Shown here: positions 26,077 through 64,000 of the stretch, in pieces
Layout of the letters: each line of letters begins with the position of its first letter
Numbering within the stretch: the first letter of the stretch is position 1
DNA from: Desulforapulum autotrophicum
Lineage (GTDB): Bacteria > Desulfobacterota > Desulfobacteria > Desulfobacterales > Desulfolunaceae
Assembly (NCBI GenBank): GCA_020723285.1
Contig: DYJE01000012.1
Coordinates: 1-64,000 of the forward strand
Direction of reading: 5' to 3'
Length of the DNA stretch: 64,000 bases
Program-made: the position numbers and the translations under genes
Notes under the pieces: generated by a model
What the model was told of the DNA's origin: nothing
Databases searched by the model: none
Seen by the model: the letters and a program-made list of their open reading frames with translations, nothing else

Positions 26077-27660
26077 TCAGAGCTTGTTTTCCTTGAAAAT
26101 CATAGACAAAAGGGCACGGGCCCGACTCATGGCCACATAATGGTAATGGTGAAGGGCCGTGTCAGATCCGGGTGCAGGGAGGTCAATGACGATGACAGCT
26201 TCACTTTCAAGCCCTTTGAAACCATGAATTTGGGCAAAGCTGATGGTTTTCGGCGGAAATGACCGCATTGAAAACTCGTCCAATACCTTGATATTCTGTT
26301 GAATGTGGACTGGAAGACAGGATGCAGAAGATTGTTCAAACGGAAACGGTGATAAAATAACAATCTGTCCCAGAGACAGCCCCCCTTTTTCCGTGAGCTC
26401 ATGGATTTCAGCAGAAAGGATCTGGGCAGCCTCGTCGGTAGACGAGACTCGTTGCTCACGGATTCTCGGTCCGTTTCCAGCTCCCTTGACGCCCATGTCG
26501 GCCTTGAGTCTTGTTTGAACCTCTTCCAGAATCAGGCGGGAATTCCGGCAATTGGTCGTCAGCGGAATTCGTGCTGGATTTGCATGTTCAAGAACACGCA
26601 GGGCCTTGGGCTCGGTTTCATCAAAAAACCCGGACTGGTTGTTGATGTCATAGAAAAAACACCATCTGCCGTCATTGAGTCCGCCTTTTAGAATCCTGTT
26701 CAAAGGCTCAAGACTTTCCATGTTCAGCATGTCCTGACCTTCATCGATGATAAGGGCGTCAAAAGCGTCAACACCTGCTCTCCGTGCTGAAATCGCCGAT
26801 GCTTCCGGCTGACAGACCACAAGACCAGGAACAAGAAAACGGCTTTCCAGAAATTTCAGAAGCCAGGGAGATCGACAGGCCAACAGAATGCTTAGGTCCT
26901 CCCCGGCCCACCGCCTGGCCGTTTCCATGGCAAGCAGGGTTTTCCCTGTCCCTGCACCGCCACTGACCATGACCCGTTTATTTGCATGGATCATATCAAC
27001 GGCTGTCATTTGATCTTCCGTTAACCGTGCGATCTGCTCTTCGGTCCGGGCCACGTCCACATGCAAGGGAACCACCGCCTCGAACTCAGGCCGAAGAGCG
27101 TGGTTCAAAACTCTAAGCGCGTCACCATCCAGCGTAAAGCCTTTTCCTCTCTTGGTATTCCAATATCTAAAGAGGGTACGAAGCCATGCTTCGAAATCGT
27201 TGAAACGCCTTGAATCAAGAAGTGTTTCAGAGTCCCACTCCACACTTCGACTCTTCCAGTCGCAATCCGGGAAAACAACACCGTAACCCATGGTAAGTCG
27301 GGGATGAATATGTTCAGGAAGAAGGGTTGAAAGTTTTCTTTTCAAGGCGTGAAGGGCTGATTGCGCTTGTCTGAAAGGGCCTTCCACCGAGTTTGTAATT
27401 ATACCGTAACGGTTGGTGTAATACCAAACGCCTTCTTCGCACCGGACACCGCCTCCTTTTACTTCGAGAAGCACAAGACCAAAAGGGGCGGTGATCACAA
27501 AATCGATTTCGCTGAACCGTTTGTATTCGTGGCAAGGCAGATTCAGAGAATGGTAGGCGGTAAAAGAGCAGTCACCAGGAAAAGCCAGGCGCAATCGATC
27601 GAAGACCCGTTTTTCCGCCTGACTTCCGGTGCTGTGGGGATATGAGGGAATCATCCTCAT
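26077..27660 (-). CDS. NERD-domain nuclease fused to superfamily-1 helicase
   Basis: A 527-residue protein. The N-terminus, about 10-130, matches the NERD (nuclease-related) fold: SQAEKRVFDRL, EIDFVITAPFGLVLLEVKGGG, giving an E-D-ExK pattern. From about 215 it is a UvrD/Rep-type helicase core: Walker A SGGAGTGKT, IDEGQDM in motif II, TTNCRNS, QIHGFKGLESEAVIV and a final VAMSRARALL motif VI. It is the last gene of the five-gene operon, starting in an ATGA overlap with the unknown-protein gene. A role in cutting and unwinding foreign DNA is inferred from domain content and company. Confidence 0.86.
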   Translation of the reverse strand: MRMIPSYPHSTGSQAEKRVFDRLRLAFPGDCSFTAYHSLNLPCHEYKRFSEIDFVITAPFGLVLLEVKGGGVRCEEGVWYYTNRYGIITNSVEGPFRQAQSALHALKRKLSTLLPEHIHPRLTMGYGVVFPDCDWKSRSVEWDSETLLDSRRFNDFEAWLRTLFRYWNTKRGKGFTLDGDALRVLNHALRPEFEAVVPLHVDVARTEEQIARLTEDQMTAVDMIHANKRVMVSGGAGTGKTLLAMETARRWAGEDLSILLACRSPWLLKFLESRFLVPGLVVCQPEASAISARRAGVDAFDALIIDEGQDMLNMESLEPLNRILKGGLNDGRWCFFYDINNQSGFFDETEPKALRVLEHANPARIPLTTNCRNSRLILEEVQTRLKADMGVKGAGNGPRIREQRVSSTDEAAQILSAEIHELTEKGGLSLGQIVILSPFPFEQSSASCLPVHIQQNIKVLDEFSMRSFPPKTISFAQIHGFKGLESEAVIVIDLPAPGSDTALHHYHYVAMSRARALLSMIFKENKL

Positions 27661-29240
27661 GGTCGTTGGGCTTTCGTATGCATTTTGATTCTGTTTTCAA
27701 CATCATACGGCACATCGGTTTCCGCCAGTCTTGCCATGAACATGTTCCAGTCCACGTCGGTTGTCACGGCCTTTACCTCCCCCGGAACAAGAATATGGGC
27801 AGACGTTCCATCAACCACCAGCCGGTAATCTCCTTTTCCAAGGATTATTTTTGTATGGATGCACGGCCACTTGCTTTCTCTTGCCAGCTTGACGGCGGCC
27901 TCTCTCTGTGCCGTGGCCCAACCCCTTGGCCCTCTGACAAAAAACTCCCGCAAAGGAACAGGGCGCGTTGGAGGTGAGCCCAGGCCCAACCCTGTGTTTG
28001 AAAAATGGTGGCCCAAGGCCGCCATACGCTGGGTGACCGAAACTTCCATTCCACTGAATCGTCTGAATTCCATGGGGAGGTTGACCCAGCCCTCACGGGC
28101 GGCAAACAGAATGGATGCGGCAATGATATCCTGTTCGTTCATTTCCGGCCTGAGAGAATCCACCAGTTCGTTGCAGGTGTCTTTTAAAAAGAAAAAGATA
28201 AGGGATCGGGAGAGATAGCCTTGATGGGTTTTGAACAGATCGCTTGCCATTTTGTCTGAAAGACCGGAAAGAGACGTAAGATCATCGATCAGTCTTGAGA
28301 GATGCTCTTTCCTGGTGGCGTCAATGGTTTGGCGTTCCTTTTTGAGCAAGTTCAAGACACTGTCCTTGATATTCCCAACCCTGGATGCCTTGTGTTCGAT
28401 AACCTGATTGACGTTTTTCCAATACAGCCGCCCGGTCATGTCACCTTCAAACGGTTCTTTGCCTGTTCGAAGCCAGACTGAAAAAGATTGCATGAACGTG
28501 TCGTTGTTGGAGGACACCGTGTCGCCCAAACCGCCCTCAAAGGCAAGGCGGCAGGCCGTGACAACGGAATCGCCTTTTCGTGAAAGCCTGTACAGCATCG
28601 CCATCATGCCACCTGCGGCAAGCACCCTTGCGGAAATTGACCGATTATCCTTCGGTTCCGGGAAATCACCCTGTTTTTCTGGCGGCCAATCCATATTCCG
28701 CTGTGTTATCTGAAATTTCTCCGGTTTTTCAACACATACAAAGTCATCCATGGAAACATTGGCGGAATTTTTCGCCACCTTACACTTCTCCCTGTCGTCT
28801 TTTGTTTTAAATAGGATCCGGTCTATCCACGATACGGGCAAGGGCGCCGGAACAAGAACACCTGTGACCGTTCCGTCCAGTTCTTCAGGAAACGATAACC
28901 TTCGCCATGAACCACTCCTTGAAAAGGCAACGACCTCTCCTTTCAATGAGGAAAGATCAATTTCAAGGATGCAGGGCGAAAGGAACGACCCTTCGCTGGT
29001 TGACCTTTCGACCGCTTTCGCTGGAACCACATCGAAAAAAAGAGGGAGATGGCCGGGGAAATCATCGAGGGAATCCTTGTAATACGCATTGGCGTATCCT
29101 TCGGGTTTCATGATCAGCCCGGCGGCCAGCATATTCAGAAGGTTGACATGGTTTGTCGCGAGACACCATGCCTTTTCCGTTGTTTTTCCTTGTTTCCCGG
29201 CTCTCTTTTTTACCTGGGACTGGGGTTTAGTCTCGTTCAT
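27657..29240 (-). CDS. unrecognised protein of the DrmAB-type operon
   Basis: A 527-residue protein of no family that I recognise. After a lysine-rich head it has WCLATNHVNLLNMLAAGLI followed by GYANAYYKD, loosely like the start of DarT-type ADP-ribosyltransferases (H..NL..IL..GL), but the rest does not follow that fold clearly. A central charged helical part (about 290-350) and a C-terminal part with WVNLPMEFRRFSGMEVSV are soluble, with no membrane segments. It overlaps the upstream helicase gene by 14 bases and the downstream NERD-helicase by ATGA, so it is a fixed member of the operon. It may be the specificity or effector subunit; function is unknown. Confidence 0.8.
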   Translation of the reverse strand: MNETKPQSQVKKRAGKQGKTTEKAWCLATNHVNLLNMLAAGLIMKPEGYANAYYKDSLDDFPGHLPLFFDVVPAKAVERSTSEGSFLSPCILEIDLSSLKGEVVAFSRSGSWRRLSFPEELDGTVTGVLVPAPLPVSWIDRILFKTKDDREKCKVAKNSANVSMDDFVCVEKPEKFQITQRNMDWPPEKQGDFPEPKDNRSISARVLAAGGMMAMLYRLSRKGDSVVTACRLAFEGGLGDTVSSNNDTFMQSFSVWLRTGKEPFEGDMTGRLYWKNVNQVIEHKASRVGNIKDSVLNLLKKERQTIDATRKEHLSRLIDDLTSLSGLSDKMASDLFKTHQGYLSRSLIFFFLKDTCNELVDSLRPEMNEQDIIAASILFAAREGWVNLPMEFRRFSGMEVSVTQRMAALGHHFSNTGLGLGSPPTRPVPLREFFVRGPRGWATAQREAAVKLARESKWPCIHTKIILGKGDYRLVVDGTSAHILVPGEVKAVTTDVDWNMFMARLAETDVPYDVENRIKMHTKAQRP

Positions 29241-30459
29241 GCTTTATCCTTTCCTTGTCACGGGGCCAGCGCGTCAAAACCGAAGGGTCGTCGGGCAGCA
29301 TGGCGTCGATTTCACAGGATCCTTTTTGTTTCAGAAAAAATACTTTTTCCCTTGCCCGGGCCACCATGACGTAAAACAGTTTTTTTTGTGTTTCCTCAAT
29401 GGCCGGATAATACCGGTATTCATGGATGTCGGCAATAAAGACAGTATCGAATTCAAGCCCTTTGCAGGACATGGCTGTCAGCACGAAAATTCCGCCCTGA
29501 TCGAAAGAATGCTCCTCCCTGCTGCCGCCATCCGTATCGTAGATTTTGATGAACGGGGGATGGGCGAGCTTGCTTTTCATGTGATCAGCCATGTCCAAAA
29601 GGCACTGGTAATAGCGCTGACGTGTGATTTTGGATCGTGTGATCACCGCAATCAGTTTGTTGGGCCAGTTGTCGGACATGATGAGGAGCCTTTTGATGAG
29701 CATCTGAAAACAGAATCCAGGTTCATGTCCACTTTCGACGTATTCCACGAGCATGGGTGTGTCCACGCTTTCGCCTGAAACGGGCGGAAGTTCCGGAGGA
29801 GGGCTTGCCGGGTCTCCCGTATAAAATTCACGGGCCAGCCGGGCCACCGGATAGGGGTTCCGAAAGTTGTACGTCAGTTCGATCACCTGGTCCGTATCAA
29901 TGACAAGAGCGTCTTCCAGATCTTTCCGGGAACTGTTGTCTTCCCCGATCTGCTGGTTCTGGTCCGCCACCACGTAAAAATTTTCCAGACCCATATTCGC
30001 GAGGGTACCGTAAAAAACAGGCGGCATGTCCTGCCCTTCGTCGATCACAAGGTAACGGACGGGGGGATTCAGCGTCTCCTGACCCAGTCCCGCCAGCCAG
30101 GCTTCCACGTCCTTCCAGTCGATGGCCCAACCTTTTCCGTCCACCAGATTCACGGGGCGACCTGCCATGGCGCGGAACATCTCCTTGTACCAGGAAATCC
30201 AGGTGGACCCGGACACCCGGTTGCCCGCCAACTGACGGCTTGCGGCAAGGAGAAGCCGATTGTAAACGAGAAAACGGTAATCGCTGCTGTTTGTGTCGTG
30301 GTGCTCCAGGACACGGAGGAGGGCCACCACGGATTTTCCCGTTCCAGGTCCTCCGATGATAAGGTGCCTTTCGTCTCTGGGCAGGTGAATGGCCCTCAGC
30401 TGATCTTTGCTCAGCATGTTGAATAGCGGCAGCTGAAATTTTCGGCGTCTATGTTCCAT
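29227..30459 (-). CDS. superfamily-1 (UvrD-like) helicase/ATPase, compact
   Basis: A 410-residue protein built only of the helicase core. Walker A GGPGTGKS is near residue 37, followed by VYNRLLLAASR, motif II VIDEGQDM, motif III VVADQNQQI, motif IV LTYNFRNPYPVARLA, motif V TAMSCKGLEFDTVFI and motif VI FYVMVARAREK. It lacks the large 1B/2B insertions of full UvrD/Rep (about 700 residues), so it resembles the short DNA helicases carried in defence and toxin-linked operons. It overlaps the DrmB-like gene by 11 bases and the next gene by 14. Confidence 0.87.
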   Translation of the reverse strand: MEHRRRKFQLPLFNMLSKDQLRAIHLPRDERHLIIGGPGTGKSVVALLRVLEHHDTNSSDYRFLVYNRLLLAASRQLAGNRVSGSTWISWYKEMFRAMAGRPVNLVDGKGWAIDWKDVEAWLAGLGQETLNPPVRYLVIDEGQDMPPVFYGTLANMGLENFYVVADQNQQIGEDNSSRKDLEDALVIDTDQVIELTYNFRNPYPVARLAREFYTGDPASPPPELPPVSGESVDTPMLVEYVESGHEPGFCFQMLIKRLLIMSDNWPNKLIAVITRSKITRQRYYQCLLDMADHMKSKLAHPPFIKIYDTDGGSREEHSFDQGGIFVLTAMSCKGLEFDTVFIADIHEYRYYPAIEETQKKLFYVMVARAREKVFFLKQKGSCEIDAMLPDDPSVLTRWPRDKERIKHERD

Positions 30460-32326
30460 GGTCCATTTCCGTCAGGTTTTGAGATTCCAGAAATCCTGGA
30501 ATGTTATCCTTGATGCTGCCTTTGATGAAGGTCCGGTCAAGAAGGGTGTTGGCATAGGCGCAGCATGGCTCGGGAATCAGGGCGCAGGCATGGCAGGCCG
30601 CCCTGTTCAGGATATTCGGCCCCTGGCCGTCATGTTCGGCGCACACGGGATCGCGGGAGCACCAGAGGGCGTGATCAAAAACACTGGACAAAAGGGCCAG
30701 CATCCGCTGGGGCTCTGCCTGTTCCACAAGGCCGCCAAGGGAACCCACGATATCGGGGACTGCCACATATATCAGAATGCCGGCCATGGGGTCCGGCCCG
30801 GTTTTGCAATAGATGCGTTCCGTGAGAGACGCCGCCGGATAACCGGCATCCGATTCAAGCTGCCTGATCAGAAGGTGGGAAAGGGTATGAAGAAGGATCA
30901 ACCGAGGGCTTACCACAATTTCAGGCTCAAATCGCATGCCTGACTTTTCAAATCGCGCCCTGAAAATGGCCGCACGGTTTTGCACCGAAGGGATTTTCTC
31001 CCAGGATGAAAGGAGCGTTTCATCGAGAGTCAGAAAGATCCCCTCCCCGAAAAGTTCAATCGCAGGCAGGCGTTTTGTCGAACCGTCGATATCAGGCGGC
31101 GTTATGATGGTTTCGTCACCAAACAACCGTGTGAACCCTTTAAAAATTCTGATTTCTTTCAATCGGTTTACCGCCACAAGCCGGTTGAAACAACTCACGA
31201 CCTGATGGTTTTTCGAATCCCGGGAAAGCGTTTTGGTCCGCTCTTTCCATTCTGTCGTTTTGTGGTGTGTGACAAAATCCTCATCATCCTGAAGGTCCGG
31301 GATCTCGTTCACAAGAGCCTTGTATTCTTCTTCCATCAACTGGCCGGGGGTCATGTTCCCGACATCCGGCGGATAACTTTTATTTTCAATGGCTTCCCAG
31401 GCAGCCTCGACCTCTTCCGGTAAACACCGGAATTTTGTGGCAAGCGTGCGAAACACCTGCTTCCGACGCAAAGCATTCCGTGCGTTTTCTATTCGTTGCC
31501 TGTTTTCCGAACTGCTGTAGACGGAATCGATCACCGTGCCTTTCCTGATACGGGATTCGGGTGGAATGATCAGCGCTGTTTTCAATTGGGGGAGATGAAC
31601 ACCCATGTCCGTGATGGATAGAATGTCTGCCTTTGCGTCACTCTCGATCTGCTCGTCGGTTCCGGTCTTCAGCCAGGGTTGGACCGGTGCTTTTCCGTAA
31701 GGGATTTTCAGATAACCTTCACGGACAGTCCTTGAAACCCCGCATCGTCCACAGCGCAGATCCCATGATGAAAAAGTTACGGTTGATTCTTTTAATTTCA
31801 AATACGGAAACGAAAAATCGCCTTTGCAATTCTTTTGTTCTGGATTTTTGGCGTCTAAATGAACAAGAAAGTGCCACGGCACATCGGCCATAAACCCATG
31901 GGGATGCACCATGACGCTGGTGACCTGAATCAAGTGGTATGTCCGCTGATGTTTATTGCGGCATGCCGTGCAGAAGGGCTTTATCGTATCATCCCCATTC
32001 CTCCATGGCTTGTAATACAGAAGGCCGCAATCGGGGCACCTCATCCAGGACGGAAACCTTATGGCCGGGATACAGACGCCATCGACCAGACCTTTGGCTT
32101 TGTCCCGCTCGTGGGCAACGGGCGGTTCCCAAAGCTCCTCGGCAATACCCAAGGCCTTCCGGACCCTTTCCACATAGAGGATTTGCCGCCCTGAGACGTT
32201 TCCGTCCTTATCCGTCCATGCCCTCGTATCTTTGGCGGTCATGAGATAATGGGGTCCGGCAAACACAGCCCCCACCGAACAGTGGGTCAAAAGATGGGAG
32301 AGGCGAATGGGAATCAATTCTTTCAT
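30449..32326 (-). CDS. drmB: DrmB-like DUF1998 protein
   Basis: A 625-residue protein with the DrmB layout. The N-terminal segment IRLSHLLTHCSVGAVFAGPHYLM is followed by zinc-finger pairs (CPDCG, CTAC and later CGRCG). The C-terminal DUF1998 domain, about 470-600, has LLHTLSHLLIRQLE, SLTERIYC, GILIYVAVPDIVGSLGGLVEQ and a cysteine-rich block (CSRDPVC, CHACALIPEPCC). DrmB is a core DISARM component that binds DrmA and loads it on phage DNA. It overlaps the DrmA-like gene by ATGA. The gene symbol reflects family similarity; no DISARM methyltransferase is present. Confidence 0.88.
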   Translation of the reverse strand: MKELIPIRLSHLLTHCSVGAVFAGPHYLMTAKDTRAWTDKDGNVSGRQILYVERVRKALGIAEELWEPPVAHERDKAKGLVDGVCIPAIRFPSWMRCPDCGLLYYKPWRNGDDTIKPFCTACRNKHQRTYHLIQVTSVMVHPHGFMADVPWHFLVHLDAKNPEQKNCKGDFSFPYLKLKESTVTFSSWDLRCGRCGVSRTVREGYLKIPYGKAPVQPWLKTGTDEQIESDAKADILSITDMGVHLPQLKTALIIPPESRIRKGTVIDSVYSSSENRQRIENARNALRRKQVFRTLATKFRCLPEEVEAAWEAIENKSYPPDVGNMTPGQLMEEEYKALVNEIPDLQDDEDFVTHHKTTEWKERTKTLSRDSKNHQVVSCFNRLVAVNRLKEIRIFKGFTRLFGDETIITPPDIDGSTKRLPAIELFGEGIFLTLDETLLSSWEKIPSVQNRAAIFRARFEKSGMRFEPEIVVSPRLILLHTLSHLLIRQLESDAGYPAASLTERIYCKTGPDPMAGILIYVAVPDIVGSLGGLVEQAEPQRMLALLSSVFDHALWCSRDPVCAEHDGQGPNILNRAACHACALIPEPCCAYANTLLDRTFIKGSIKDNIPGFLESQNLTEMDHGT

Positions 32327-35300
32327 AGAAGCTCCATCAGAGCGGAGTTTTCAACATTTCTCATGGACTGGAGGGTGGGCCACAGGCCCTTGATGCGGTC
32401 TTGGTGGTTATACAAAAGCCTTCCCTTAACCCGATCCGTGTCTTTAACAGAATAAAACATCTCCTTTTTATCCGCCTTGCATCGATCTGCCTCATGTTTC
32501 CAGTCAGATGCCAGTCGTTTGATATGGTCTTTCGTCTGTTTGGCCCGCTCAGCATCGGCCATGGCGCACCGCTGACCCAATCTTTGGAGAACCGTTGCCA
32601 CAGCCAAATCTGACGGGTCGAAATGTATGGCGGATGTGTTGTCAAGAAACCGTTTGCCGCTATGACGGACGACGATGACCATCGCCGCATGAAGAGCCCT
32701 CATGCGGGCCTGATATGTGTACGGCGTGATGCTTGTGGGCTCCACAAAACGGTAGAACGATTCGTGGTATGACCTGAAATCTTCGTAATGGGAAAGGCTT
32801 CGAGCCTGATCCCTGTAAAAGTTCACAAACACAAGACCGGGAACGTCGCTTCGTCCCACACGGCTGCTGGCCTGGATGTATTCCGCCGTGGTCAGGGGCT
32901 GGCCGTTGATGATCATCAGGGACAATCGCGACACATCGAGACCCACGGAAACCATGTTGGTGGCCAGCACCGCGTCAAGGTGGCCCGCTTCGTCGTAACG
33001 TTTTTCAAGCCGGTCGAATGTCCGCCTGTTTTCTTCAGGCTTTGAAACACTGGTCAATGTAGAAACTTCCGGGGCACGGCGATTGTTCTCATCCTTACGA
33101 TTTCGATCGTCCTCATGAACATCCGCACCCATCCCATCGCGTCTGAATAAACTGTAGTTCTTTGGAACATCATCCCGAAAAGCGTTCTGGCTGTTGCCCA
33201 CGCCTTTCAGGCTGCCGTGATAGACCACCATGGTCCACCAGGCGTCGAAAAGAAGATCCTTGTCCGCCTGTTCGCCGAAAACCATTTCCGGTCCGGCCAG
33301 AAGAGCTCCGGCCAAAGGGGCCATACAGTGCTGCCTGTTCTTCAACGGGGCGAGATAGCCTGCGTAGAGTCGCCCCGGCCGTTCTTCCAGGGGAACCGTC
33401 CGGGCAAAATAGGAATCATCGCACGAAAGCCCCGGAGGGGGAAACACGGCAAGATCCCTCGCGTAAAGCCTCCTGACCTGTTGCTCCGCCATTTTGATGG
33501 TGGCGGTGGAGGCGATATACTTGGGTCTCACTCCTTTCGAAATCAGCACCGTGTCAAGGGCCGCTTCGTAAAGACCCGCAACAGAACCCAAAGCCCCGGA
33601 TATCAAATGGAGTTCGTCCTGGATGATCATTTCCGGGGGACGGTTTCCATGAAGACCGAAGAAGGCCTTGGTCCGTTCCTCCCATGCGAGGCGGGCGAAT
33701 TTGTCAATCGTTGAAATCACAAGGGTTGGCGGGTTTTCGTACAGGGCCTCGTCAACCACCTGACAGGGAAGAAAACCTTCTCTGTCTTTTCCGAAATCGC
33801 ATTCAGGATTCACACATCTGAATCGGAAGGACCGCTCGTTTGAAATATAACTGCTTTTCACGTTGAAGATACGGCCGCAGCGGGGACAGGAGGAAAGAAT
33901 CAAGGATCGTGGTGGTTCGCCCGATCCTGTGACAGAGCCTCTTACCTCGTCCATGGCTTCCCTGAACGTATTGGGGCTGCTGGCCTGACCCACCCACATT
34001 CCAGCCGTAATAGGCTCTTTCCCGAGAAGGTCTTTAGAATTCCTCCTGATCACTTCCAAAGAGCAAATCAAACGGCAGGCCCGTTCGAACTGCTGTGCCG
34101 TCAAAAGTCTCAAGGTGTATCGCATGAGAACCGTCGTCCCTCCAGATGACGAAGGGAATGCAAGCCGCCTGTAGGTGATGAGAAAGGCGATAAGGGCGAG
34201 ATACGCTTCTGTTTTCCCGCCTCCGGTTGGAAACCAGATCAGGTCTACGAGATCCCGAAACTCACTGTCTTCATGGACCACGGATTCCAGAGAGACCAGA
34301 AGAAAGGCCAGCTGAAAGGGACGCCAGCGGTAGGTGTGAGGTGTTTTCCCAAGAACCTTGTCGTATGCGGCCATCTGGTCGTTCATGGCCTGGTTGGCGA
34401 TGGCAAAAGCCATGGCCGCCAAGCGGTTTTTTTCAAGGACGTCAAGACCGCGACGCATTCGGTCAAGAGCCGTATCCATTCTTTGGATGATTCGGAAAGC
34501 GGCTTCTTTTTCATGGCGGTTGTAATTATCATCCCTGTTTTTCTGACCAAGAATCCAGCTTTCGTATTCAGACACAAACCGGACAAGAAGGGCATGAATG
34601 GCTGTGTCTCCAAAGGTGTACCCGGACAGAACGGCGATATCGAGGGCATCCGAACCCACCTTGTCCACATCGGCCGTCACCTGGGGGACTTCCACGGCAG
34701 GCAGAAAATCGGACCGGATTTCCCTAATCCGATCATCTTCCATTTCCCAGTTCGCCGCCGCCCCGTGCCCCACGGCATACGTGCGCCTGTCCCTGTACTG
34801 GAGCTCCAGCTCCATTTCTTCATCAGTGAGCAGTTCCGGATCGACCCTGGGGTAAACGCCCACGTCGCCTTGGTCCACCACGCATTTCAGCCTTACCTCG
34901 AAAAATGAGAGGGCGCACCGGCTCTGAGCAAATTCTTTTGGTTTTTCAGAGTCGGCCAGCACCTGTTTATTGATCAGCGAAACGGTGGCCATCCAGCCAT
35001 CGGCGAAAGGACGCCACAGGATATGAAGTTCACCTTTGTCCTCAAACACGGGCTTTCGATGCTCCGTTGTTACCCGGCTCTTCGGACATTCAACAGTGAA
35101 AGATTCACGCGAGAAATCACCAAGGGAAAACCGGGTCCACACATCCTTGCGGACATCTTTTATGAGAGCATACCCCACACCTTCGGGAATGAGCTGAAGA
35201 CGGGCGGTCCCCTTGATGAAAAAGGAAAAGCCCACGGAAGAAGGCGGAGTATAGCGCTGCTTCCTGTTTAATGGTTCTGCTTGAGGCTCGGAATTGTCAT

Positions 35301-35532
35301 CTGTGAGGTCTTGATACTCATCCTGATCTTCAGAAGCAGGATCTATACCCGATTCGCCAGGTACTACTGGAAAAAGGATCGCCGTATGGTAACGATCAAG
35401 AGGATTGATTCCATACAGTATATTCTCCTTCGGTTCATCAATATTTAATCCGAAACCCGGTCCGATGAGCGCATGCCCGACCCAGGTCAAAAGGTCATGA
35501 CGAAAACAGGATATTTTTTTCTTTTCGTCCAT
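32323..35532 (-). CDS. drmA: DrmA-like superfamily-2 helicase
   Basis: A 1069-residue helicase of the DrmA/YprA-related group. Long N-terminal domain (1-410) with no known motif, then motif I WFPTGGGKTEAYLAL, motif Ib region VLMRYTLRLLTAQQFERA, a zinc-binding insertion (CPRCG, CVNPEC), motif II as DELH in MIIQDELHLISG, motif III STATI, and the C-terminal RecA domain with LATNMVSVGLDVSRL and motif VI QASSRVGR. DISARM DrmA translocates on DNA and, with DrmB, blocks incoming phage DNA. It is the first gene of the operon. ATG 35532 is chosen over ATG 35538 because of AGG spacing. Confidence 0.9.
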   Translation of the reverse strand: MDEKKKISCFRHDLLTWVGHALIGPGFGLNIDEPKENILYGINPLDRYHTAILFPVVPGESGIDPASEDQDEYQDLTDDNSEPQAEPLNRKQRYTPPSSVGFSFFIKGTARLQLIPEGVGYALIKDVRKDVWTRFSLGDFSRESFTVECPKSRVTTEHRKPVFEDKGELHILWRPFADGWMATVSLINKQVLADSEKPKEFAQSRCALSFFEVRLKCVVDQGDVGVYPRVDPELLTDEEMELELQYRDRRTYAVGHGAAANWEMEDDRIREIRSDFLPAVEVPQVTADVDKVGSDALDIAVLSGYTFGDTAIHALLVRFVSEYESWILGQKNRDDNYNRHEKEAAFRIIQRMDTALDRMRRGLDVLEKNRLAAMAFAIANQAMNDQMAAYDKVLGKTPHTYRWRPFQLAFLLVSLESVVHEDSEFRDLVDLIWFPTGGGKTEAYLALIAFLITYRRLAFPSSSGGTTVLMRYTLRLLTAQQFERACRLICSLEVIRRNSKDLLGKEPITAGMWVGQASSPNTFREAMDEVRGSVTGSGEPPRSLILSSCPRCGRIFNVKSSYISNERSFRFRCVNPECDFGKDREGFLPCQVVDEALYENPPTLVISTIDKFARLAWEERTKAFFGLHGNRPPEMIIQDELHLISGALGSVAGLYEAALDTVLISKGVRPKYIASTATIKMAEQQVRRLYARDLAVFPPPGLSCDDSYFARTVPLEERPGRLYAGYLAPLKNRQHCMAPLAGALLAGPEMVFGEQADKDLLFDAWWTMVVYHGSLKGVGNSQNAFRDDVPKNYSLFRRDGMGADVHEDDRNRKDENNRRAPEVSTLTSVSKPEENRRTFDRLEKRYDEAGHLDAVLATNMVSVGLDVSRLSLMIINGQPLTTAEYIQASSRVGRSDVPGLVFVNFYRDQARSLSHYEDFRSYHESFYRFVEPTSITPYTYQARMRALHAAMVIVVRHSGKRFLDNTSAIHFDPSDLAVATVLQRLGQRCAMADAERAKQTKDHIKRLASDWKHEADRCKADKKEMFYSVKDTDRVKGRLLYNHQDRIKGLWPTLQSMRNVENSALMELL

Positions 35533-35618
35533 GGGCATCCTACTGTCACAAGCAATCCAGAAGAGAATTAAAAAACTGATACCCTAAGATTATATTTCTA
35601 GCAAGATATTTTGAGTAA

Positions 35619-62681: not shown

Positions 62682-63388
62682 AATTCCAATACGTCAGACC
62701 CAGCTGAAAAACTGTTTTCAATAGAGTGATTGAAAATATCCATGACGGATGTGCGATCATTCTCAACCATGGGCACCAGCACCTGTGTTCATCCGACGGC
62801 CTCCTTATTTCAGGAATCCAAATCATGTGTGATGAGCGTCAACGGAATTCCCGGTTCTCCTGATTTCTGGATTGTACATGGTCTTTTCATTTCAAAGTGT
62901 CAAGCATAATGATAGGGCCAAATATCCTCGCCCCCACCCAGCTCCTTTAGAAACCGGAAAATTCAGTCCACATCCTTTTTTTCCCCGGAAGCATCTCAGG
63001 ACGGGAATTCCTATAAAAACAGTCGGAAAACAACCGCGATAAGGCATTGAGCAAGATAAAAATTTTTACTGGACAAGCAATTATCAATCCGTTATGGATC
63101 ATCTACTTAAAATGATTAATGGTGGTGCGCGCGGACTCAGTCTATGGGGGGCCAAGCCCGGTTCATTAATCGCGACAATTTCGAATCCTTCGGACAGGAA
63201 TCTTCTGTGCATTCCACTATCTGACCTGTCTTTTCTGGCTCCCTTTGCAATTATGAAAAAGAGGATTTATGGTAGGGCTTTCAGTGATCCGATCAGACTT
63301 CTCACAAGGTCCATCTTGCCATTTCAATACCCTGAGTTACTTAAATGAATATCAAAATAAATGATTATTGGATTACTGAGAGGAACCA
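62682..63388. other. 700-bp region with no recognisable gene
   Basis: AT-rich and without a convincing reading frame. A frame of 84 codons at 63094-63348 on the plus strand has no known family and a poor ribosome site, and is not called. The region marks a change in composition before the partial defence gene at the right edge. Confidence 0.5.
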
Positions 63389-64000
63389 GTGACAACTATC
63401 GACTTCACGCGAATTCGTAGTACGCCAAAAAGCCGCAATGACAGTTTCGAGTCGCTCGCGGTTCATCTTTTTCGTAGTACCTGTAAGGCACCTACGGGGT
63501 CAACCTTCGTCAGTCTGAAAGGAGATGGAGGCGATGGTGGTGTCGAAGCCTACTTTCGCACGTCAAACGGCAATATTATTGGTGTTCAAGCTAAGTACCT
63601 CTTTCAACTCGGTTCGGCCGAGCTTGGCCAAATTGATGGCTCGCTTCAAACTGCGCTCAGCAATCACCCGACTCTATCTGAGTACTGGGTGTACATCCCC
63701 TTCGACCTCACTGGCAAAGTAGCATCTGGGAAACGAGGCAAGAGCCAAGCAGAACGTTTCGAAGAATGGAAGAAAAAAACTGAGGATGGGGCAGCTGCAA
63801 GAGGCTTCCAACTCACAATTACACTGTGCACGGCTACAGTTATTCGAAATCAGCTGCTCGCCCTCGATTCCCATGGAGGGATGCGCAGATATTGGTTTGA
63901 CGATTCTTTACTAACGGACACGCAGATACAACGGTGCTTGGATTCGGCAAAAGCGTTCGCTGGTCCAAGGTATACAGCAGCGCTTGATATTTCAACAAAC
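63389..64000 (+). CDS. partial gene: N-terminal PD-(D/E)XK-like nuclease domain of an Avs/STAND-type defence protein
   Basis: An open frame of 204 codons beginning GTG, 5 bases after AGAGG, and running off the window. The nuclease core is visible: Glu21 in DSFESLAVHLFRS, then GDGGDGGVEAYF (Asp49, Glu53) and GVQAKY (Gln67, Lys69), a Mrr-like D/E...QxK arrangement with the glycine-rich turn seen in Cap4/Avs N-terminal nucleases. Further on are SEYWVYIPFDLTGK, GRKR-type basic GKRGKSQAERFEEWKKK and a closing AGPRYTAALDIS, which in STAND NTPases with this head precedes the NTPase. The downstream NTPase and sensor parts lie outside the window. Base composition is lower in GC than the flagellar genes. 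Confidence 0.75.
   Translation, partial: MTTIDFTRIRSTPKSRNDSFESLAVHLFRSTCKAPTGSTFVSLKGDGGDGGVEAYFRTSNGNIIGVQAKYLFQLGSAELGQIDGSLQTALSNHPTLSEYWVYIPFDLTGKVASGKRGKSQAERFEEWKKKTEDGAAARGFQLTITLCTATVIRNQLLALDSHGGMRRYWFDDSLLTDTQIQRCLDSAKAFAGPRYTAALDISTN

Follow-up and report, generated by a model that had tools for sequence, protein, structure and literature searches.

A diverged Avs2-like gene with a predicted Avs4/Mrr-like nuclease domain in Desulforapulum autotrophicum

The right edge of the 64,000-nucleotide stretch of Desulforapulum autotrophicum DNA analysed here (the window) cuts through a reading frame whose visible part had been taken for the N-terminal nuclease domain of a defence STAND protein. 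What does the complete gene encode, and which phage protein might its product sense? Because the contig is 119 kb long and the window covers just its first 64 kb, with the same numbering for both, the gene could be read past the window edge. The GTG-started open frame of 204 codons was present as claimed. With its continuation it forms a gene of 1402 aa (63389-67597, plus strand) that is stop-free throughout. A STAND NTPase was found in the rightward extension and the frame was unbroken, so that neither a lack of this module nor a frameshift was encountered. The prediction of an Avs-type STAND protein in which a nuclease domain precedes an NTPase is thus confirmed on the contig. We suggest that the gene (hereafter avs2-like) very probably encodes a single-protein anti-phage receptor of the Avs2 family (AVAST type 2), most likely triggered by the phage large terminase. 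The coordinates of the features are listed in Table 1.

Table 1. Features at and around the avs2-like gene, in contig numbering
Feature	Position	Strand	Remarks
DrmA-like and DrmB-like genes	30452-35538	-	
Interspersed repeat, apparently non-coding	63008..63335	.	Upstream of the avs2-like gene, ending 54 bp ahead of its GTG
Translation start of the avs2-like gene (AGAGGA-like ribosome site, then GTG)	63381..63391	+	Sequence and starts of relatives
Visible part of the avs2-like gene, 204 aa	63389..64000	+	Avs2 in sequence searches of PADLOC, NCBIfam and PDB
Putative N-terminal effector nuclease of the PD-(D/E)XK / Mrr-like type, up to about residue 191	63389..63961	+	Conserved E21, D49, E53, Q67-x-K69
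GPRYT boundary, residues 192-196	63962..63976	+	Start of homology to the NCBI Avs2 model
ProA-type gene, 1994 aa (DUF4011/helicase/MTES_1575-nuclease)	67683-73667	+	Directly downstream of the avs2-like gene, outside the window

The AGAGGA motif lies about 8 nt upstream of the GTG codon. Homologues of the protein begin at the equivalent residue (M-x-x-IDF or similar), and the GTG start is supported because the relatives share this position. The repeat upstream of the gene, about 270-345 bp long, has five diverged copies in this genome, with 71-75% identity to the copy at this locus, and the copies all terminate at nearly the same base. It was absent from 20 related genomes. The folding of the repeat was unremarkable (z +1.6), it lacked inverted repeats of at least 12 bases, and Rfam detected no RNA in contig positions 60001-76000. 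The promoter of the avs2-like gene may lie within this repeat or be interrupted by it. A chimeric assembly at the locus is unlikely, since the repeat recurs elsewhere in the same genome and its copies would be too diverged to mislead assembly. An 84-aa ORF (63094-63348), examined as a possible partner gene, was dismissed: it had no family match, it sits in the repeat, other copies of which differ by small indels, and the gene tables inspected for the E. coli and B. glumae relatives list no such ORF next to the gene.

All six strong PADLOC matches of the 1402-aa protein were to Avs2 (E 1.3e-186 to 6.9e-77), one of the profiles spanning residues 3-1355. The NCBIfam Avs2 model (NF041813) matched with E 1.1e-112, and the sole significant PDB sequence match was Avs2 9o4e (E 9.7e-56), the C-terminal stretch included. 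The NF041813 score of 378 bits is under the equivalog naming cut-off of 1000 bits, and the protein is therefore filed as an Avs2-related subgroup and not as an equivalog. Its Enterobacter orthologue scored 407 bits, and proteins from Moraxella and Haloplanus scored near 900. The protein was also compared domain by domain, using hhalign, with a set of four proteins that included the NCBI-labelled Avs2 of Rhodothermus marinus. Probabilities were 99.9% for the nuclease, 100% for the NTPase, 99.9% for the middle and 98.7% for the C-terminus, against less than 1% in shuffled controls (0.1% for the C-terminus). The linker (residues 200-335) did not align to this set, and Pfam returned no domain above cut-off anywhere in the protein. 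The STAND NTPase, middle and C-terminal half are thus homologous to and co-linear with Avs2 (NF041813, the PADLOC Avs2 profiles and 9o4e), and the nuclease-type N-terminus resembles that of the labelled Rhodothermus Avs2. Unlike Avs2, however, the protein has a diverged score, an N-terminus with no detectable likeness to that of 9o4e and a linker that is not alignable. Judged by these matches, the avs2-like gene is a further member, in a diverged subgroup, of the known Avs2 type. The original assignment to Avs proteins was therefore right in kind, and can be refined to a specifically Avs2-like one over the whole length.

The motifs named in the original prediction (E21, G47-GDGGV-E53, Q67-A-K69 and G192-PRYT) were all found in the translation. 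Nine full-length homologues, namely this protein and eight relatives at 43-72% identity to it, were aligned, and E21, D49, E53, Q67 and K69 were invariant, as was G192-P193-R194. The E, D, E and Q-x-K residues were also kept in four distant homologues of about 25% identity: the labelled Rhodothermus Avs2 and proteins from Moraxella, the archaeon Haloplanus and Acetobacter. To judge from these alignments, the agreement is far beyond chance. The proposed Mrr-like nuclease motifs are thus putative catalytic residues, invariant in the homologues and kept in distant Avs2 proteins. In the structural model of the N-terminus, of modest confidence (mean pLDDT 65), helices were predicted at residues 20-31 and 76-92, and strands at 39-45, 51-57, 63-70 and 98-102. 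This order of helix, three strands, helix and strand fits a PD-(D/E)XK core. EndoMS, Avs4 and Cap4 chains were near the top of the Foldseek matches of this model (pLDDT 65), none of them significant (E of at least 0.05). VIA-align matches of the same model were helical bundles that matched the linker, and were uninformative on the nuclease.

The nuclease appears related to that of Avs4 (NF041815; PDB 8dgf), weakly by direct match and more strongly by way of the Rhodothermus Avs2. The Avs4 profile matched the 1402-aa protein at residues 16-117 only (13.6 bits, E 0.007), and the N-terminus of the Rhodothermus Avs2 matched the Avs4 nuclease with E 1.2e-8. Together with the presence of Avs4 among the Foldseek matches, this similarity could be read as a sign of an Avs4-like, portal-sensing protein. 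Such an identity is very improbable: the Avs4 match is limited to the N-terminal ~100-145 residues, the NTPase and C-terminus match Avs2 only, and the Avs4 profile matched neither the NTPase nor the sensor, a full-length Avs4 match being absent. The nuclease also belongs to the same broad PD-(D/E)XK class as the Cap4 / DUF4297 nuclease, but neither a SAVED sensor nor a DUF4297 match was found in the protein using Pfam.

The first ~175 residues of 9o4e had no detectable similarity to the N-terminus of the 1402-aa protein, and the Rhodothermus Avs2 aligns to 9o4e from residue 165 onward only. In the Rhodothermus Avs2 the match to the NCBI Avs2 model starts at residue 176, and in our protein and its relatives at residues 188-191, so the GPRYT motif marks the point where family-wide Avs2 homology begins. 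The proposed boundary ahead of the NTPase coincides with this onset. Because the Avs2 model starts after the nuclease domain and the N-terminus of 9o4e is dissimilar, the N-terminus behaves as a swappable effector. The predicted protein is, on this evidence, an Avs2 body carrying an Avs4/Mrr-like PD-(D/E)XK nuclease with conserved putative catalytic residues.

Walker A (GPAGIGKTH, residues 367-375) and Walker B (FVIYIDALNE, residues 438-447) were identified in the NTPase, and their core residues were invariant across the nine aligned proteins. The predicted structure continues with a long, mostly helical region that has strands near its end. A second stretch of NF041813 (positions 937-1305) aligned to residues 1008-1361. 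The last 270 residues matched the Avs2 set (hhalign 96.8%, E 2.4e-10) less well than the NTPase did. The model of the NTPase and C-terminal half was of low confidence (mean pLDDT 64, pTM 0.38), and its best fold match was the terminase-bound Avs3 (8dgc; E 1.7e-4). The alignment of 8dgc to this low-confidence model covered 466 residues with Z 12.4 and an rmsd of 19, so the fold match is only suggestive. Avs3 profiles gave no sequence match to the protein in PADLOC or NCBIfam. The Avs3 effector is of the Cap4 type.

In published work on the family, Avs1-3 bind to the large terminase of the phage and Avs4 to its portal (PMC12931631, PMC12724215). The ATPase domains assemble with ATP, and the infected cell is killed because the nuclease effectors of Avs1-4 cleave its own DNA as well as that of the phage (PMC12931631, PMC12724215). 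Since the C-terminal half is Avs2-like and the best fold match is the terminase-bound Avs3, the large terminase is, by analogy, the most likely trigger of the avs2-like protein. The full protein had been expected to show which phage protein is sensed; it allows a family-based suggestion of terminase only. Recognition of a different phage protein (the portal, a Ksap1-like protein or another) is possible but unlikely. It would agree with the poorer match of the last 270 residues, with a score below the NCBI Avs2 cut-off, and with the apparent binding of a second protein, Ksap1, by a Klebsiella Avs2-family protein (PMC12724215, PMC12931631). However, likeness to Avs2 remains detectable in the C-terminal half, and the fold that the model matches best is that of an Avs3 bound to terminase. 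If the avs2-like protein acts as its Avs2 relatives do, its C-terminal half would bind a protein of the phage, with the large terminase subunit as the likeliest candidate, and ATP-dependent assembly of the NTPase would bring the N-terminal nucleases together. The assembled nucleases would then cut phage and host DNA, and the cell would die before phage release.

Full-length orthologues with 60-72% identity were found in Burkholderia, Pokkaliibacter, Pectobacterium, Enterobacter and Kosakonia, and in MAGs of Pseudacidovorax, Rhodocyclales and Silicimonas. One full-length relative, in a gammaproteobacterial MAG, had 43% identity. Plasmids of Burkholderia glumae carry copies with 70% identity, and one of these plasmids was typed as conjugative. 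Of 5426 complete E. coli genomes, 77 contained DNA resembling the Enterobacter gene, and in 50 of these the similarity extended over at least 80% of the query. The RefSeq name of the E. coli orthologue, WP_001017806.1, is only “ATP-binding protein”. Among the 58 genomes searched (its own genome included), 55 had no match to the avs2-like protein, and two related genomes had matches with 25-33% identity only. The GC3 of the avs2-like gene is 47%, versus 71% for both the neighbouring flagellar gene flgI and the downstream ProA gene. Composition and distribution together give a clear reading of the gene as foreign in its host and horizontally acquired. A profile of nine sequences found no relative in viral contigs, and a phage collection yielded one weak NTPase match only; the avs2-like gene is thus not seen as phage cargo. 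We also considered, tentatively, a distinct Avs2-related lineage, including members from E. coli, Enterobacter, Burkholderia and this host, that would combine the Avs4-type nuclease with a sensor diverged enough for a non-terminase trigger. This seems improbable, though conceivable.

The 1994-aa protein encoded next to the avs2-like gene scored 2042 bits with the NCBI “anti-phage protein ProA” model, above its cut-off of 1500 bits, and was matched by PADLOC as PDC-S37. The host-like GC3 of its gene suggests a separate arrival. Within the window, the stretch 26077-35538 (minus strand) comprises the DrmA/DrmB-like genes followed by those for a UvrD-type helicase, a 527-aa protein that matched nothing in PADLOC or Pfam, and a NERD-helicase. 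It forms a DISARM-like or related operon. The original count of two defence loci thus stands for the drmAB-like and avs2-like genes but is an underestimate, as there are more than two nearby and the ProA-type gene directly adjoins. In E. coli UMNK88, the orthologue lies near GajA/GajB and PDC-S50 and PDC-M01 candidates, in an island (region L025, 9025-23982). Almost the same island was observed on a plasmid of E. coli Ec1115 (L048), the chromosome of which also carries a copy of the gene.

A foreign gene that is absent from the close relatives of its host could also encode a STAND regulator, or be a mere remnant, with no role in defence. We consider this highly unlikely, as the gene is full length and stop-free with every motif intact, and as 60-72% identity is maintained across genera. 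The position of the E. coli orthologue in a defence island and the ProA-type neighbour in D. autotrophicum also argue against it.

The probable Avs2-family receptor described here identifies a lineage that NCBI annotation leaves as “ATP-binding protein”. As this lineage includes E. coli orthologues, both its trigger and its nuclease are directly testable in that species. With a predicted Avs4-type nuclease on an Avs2 body, it clearly exemplifies how Avs types share effectors, and the avs2-like gene appears to add a case of transfer between distant bacteria.
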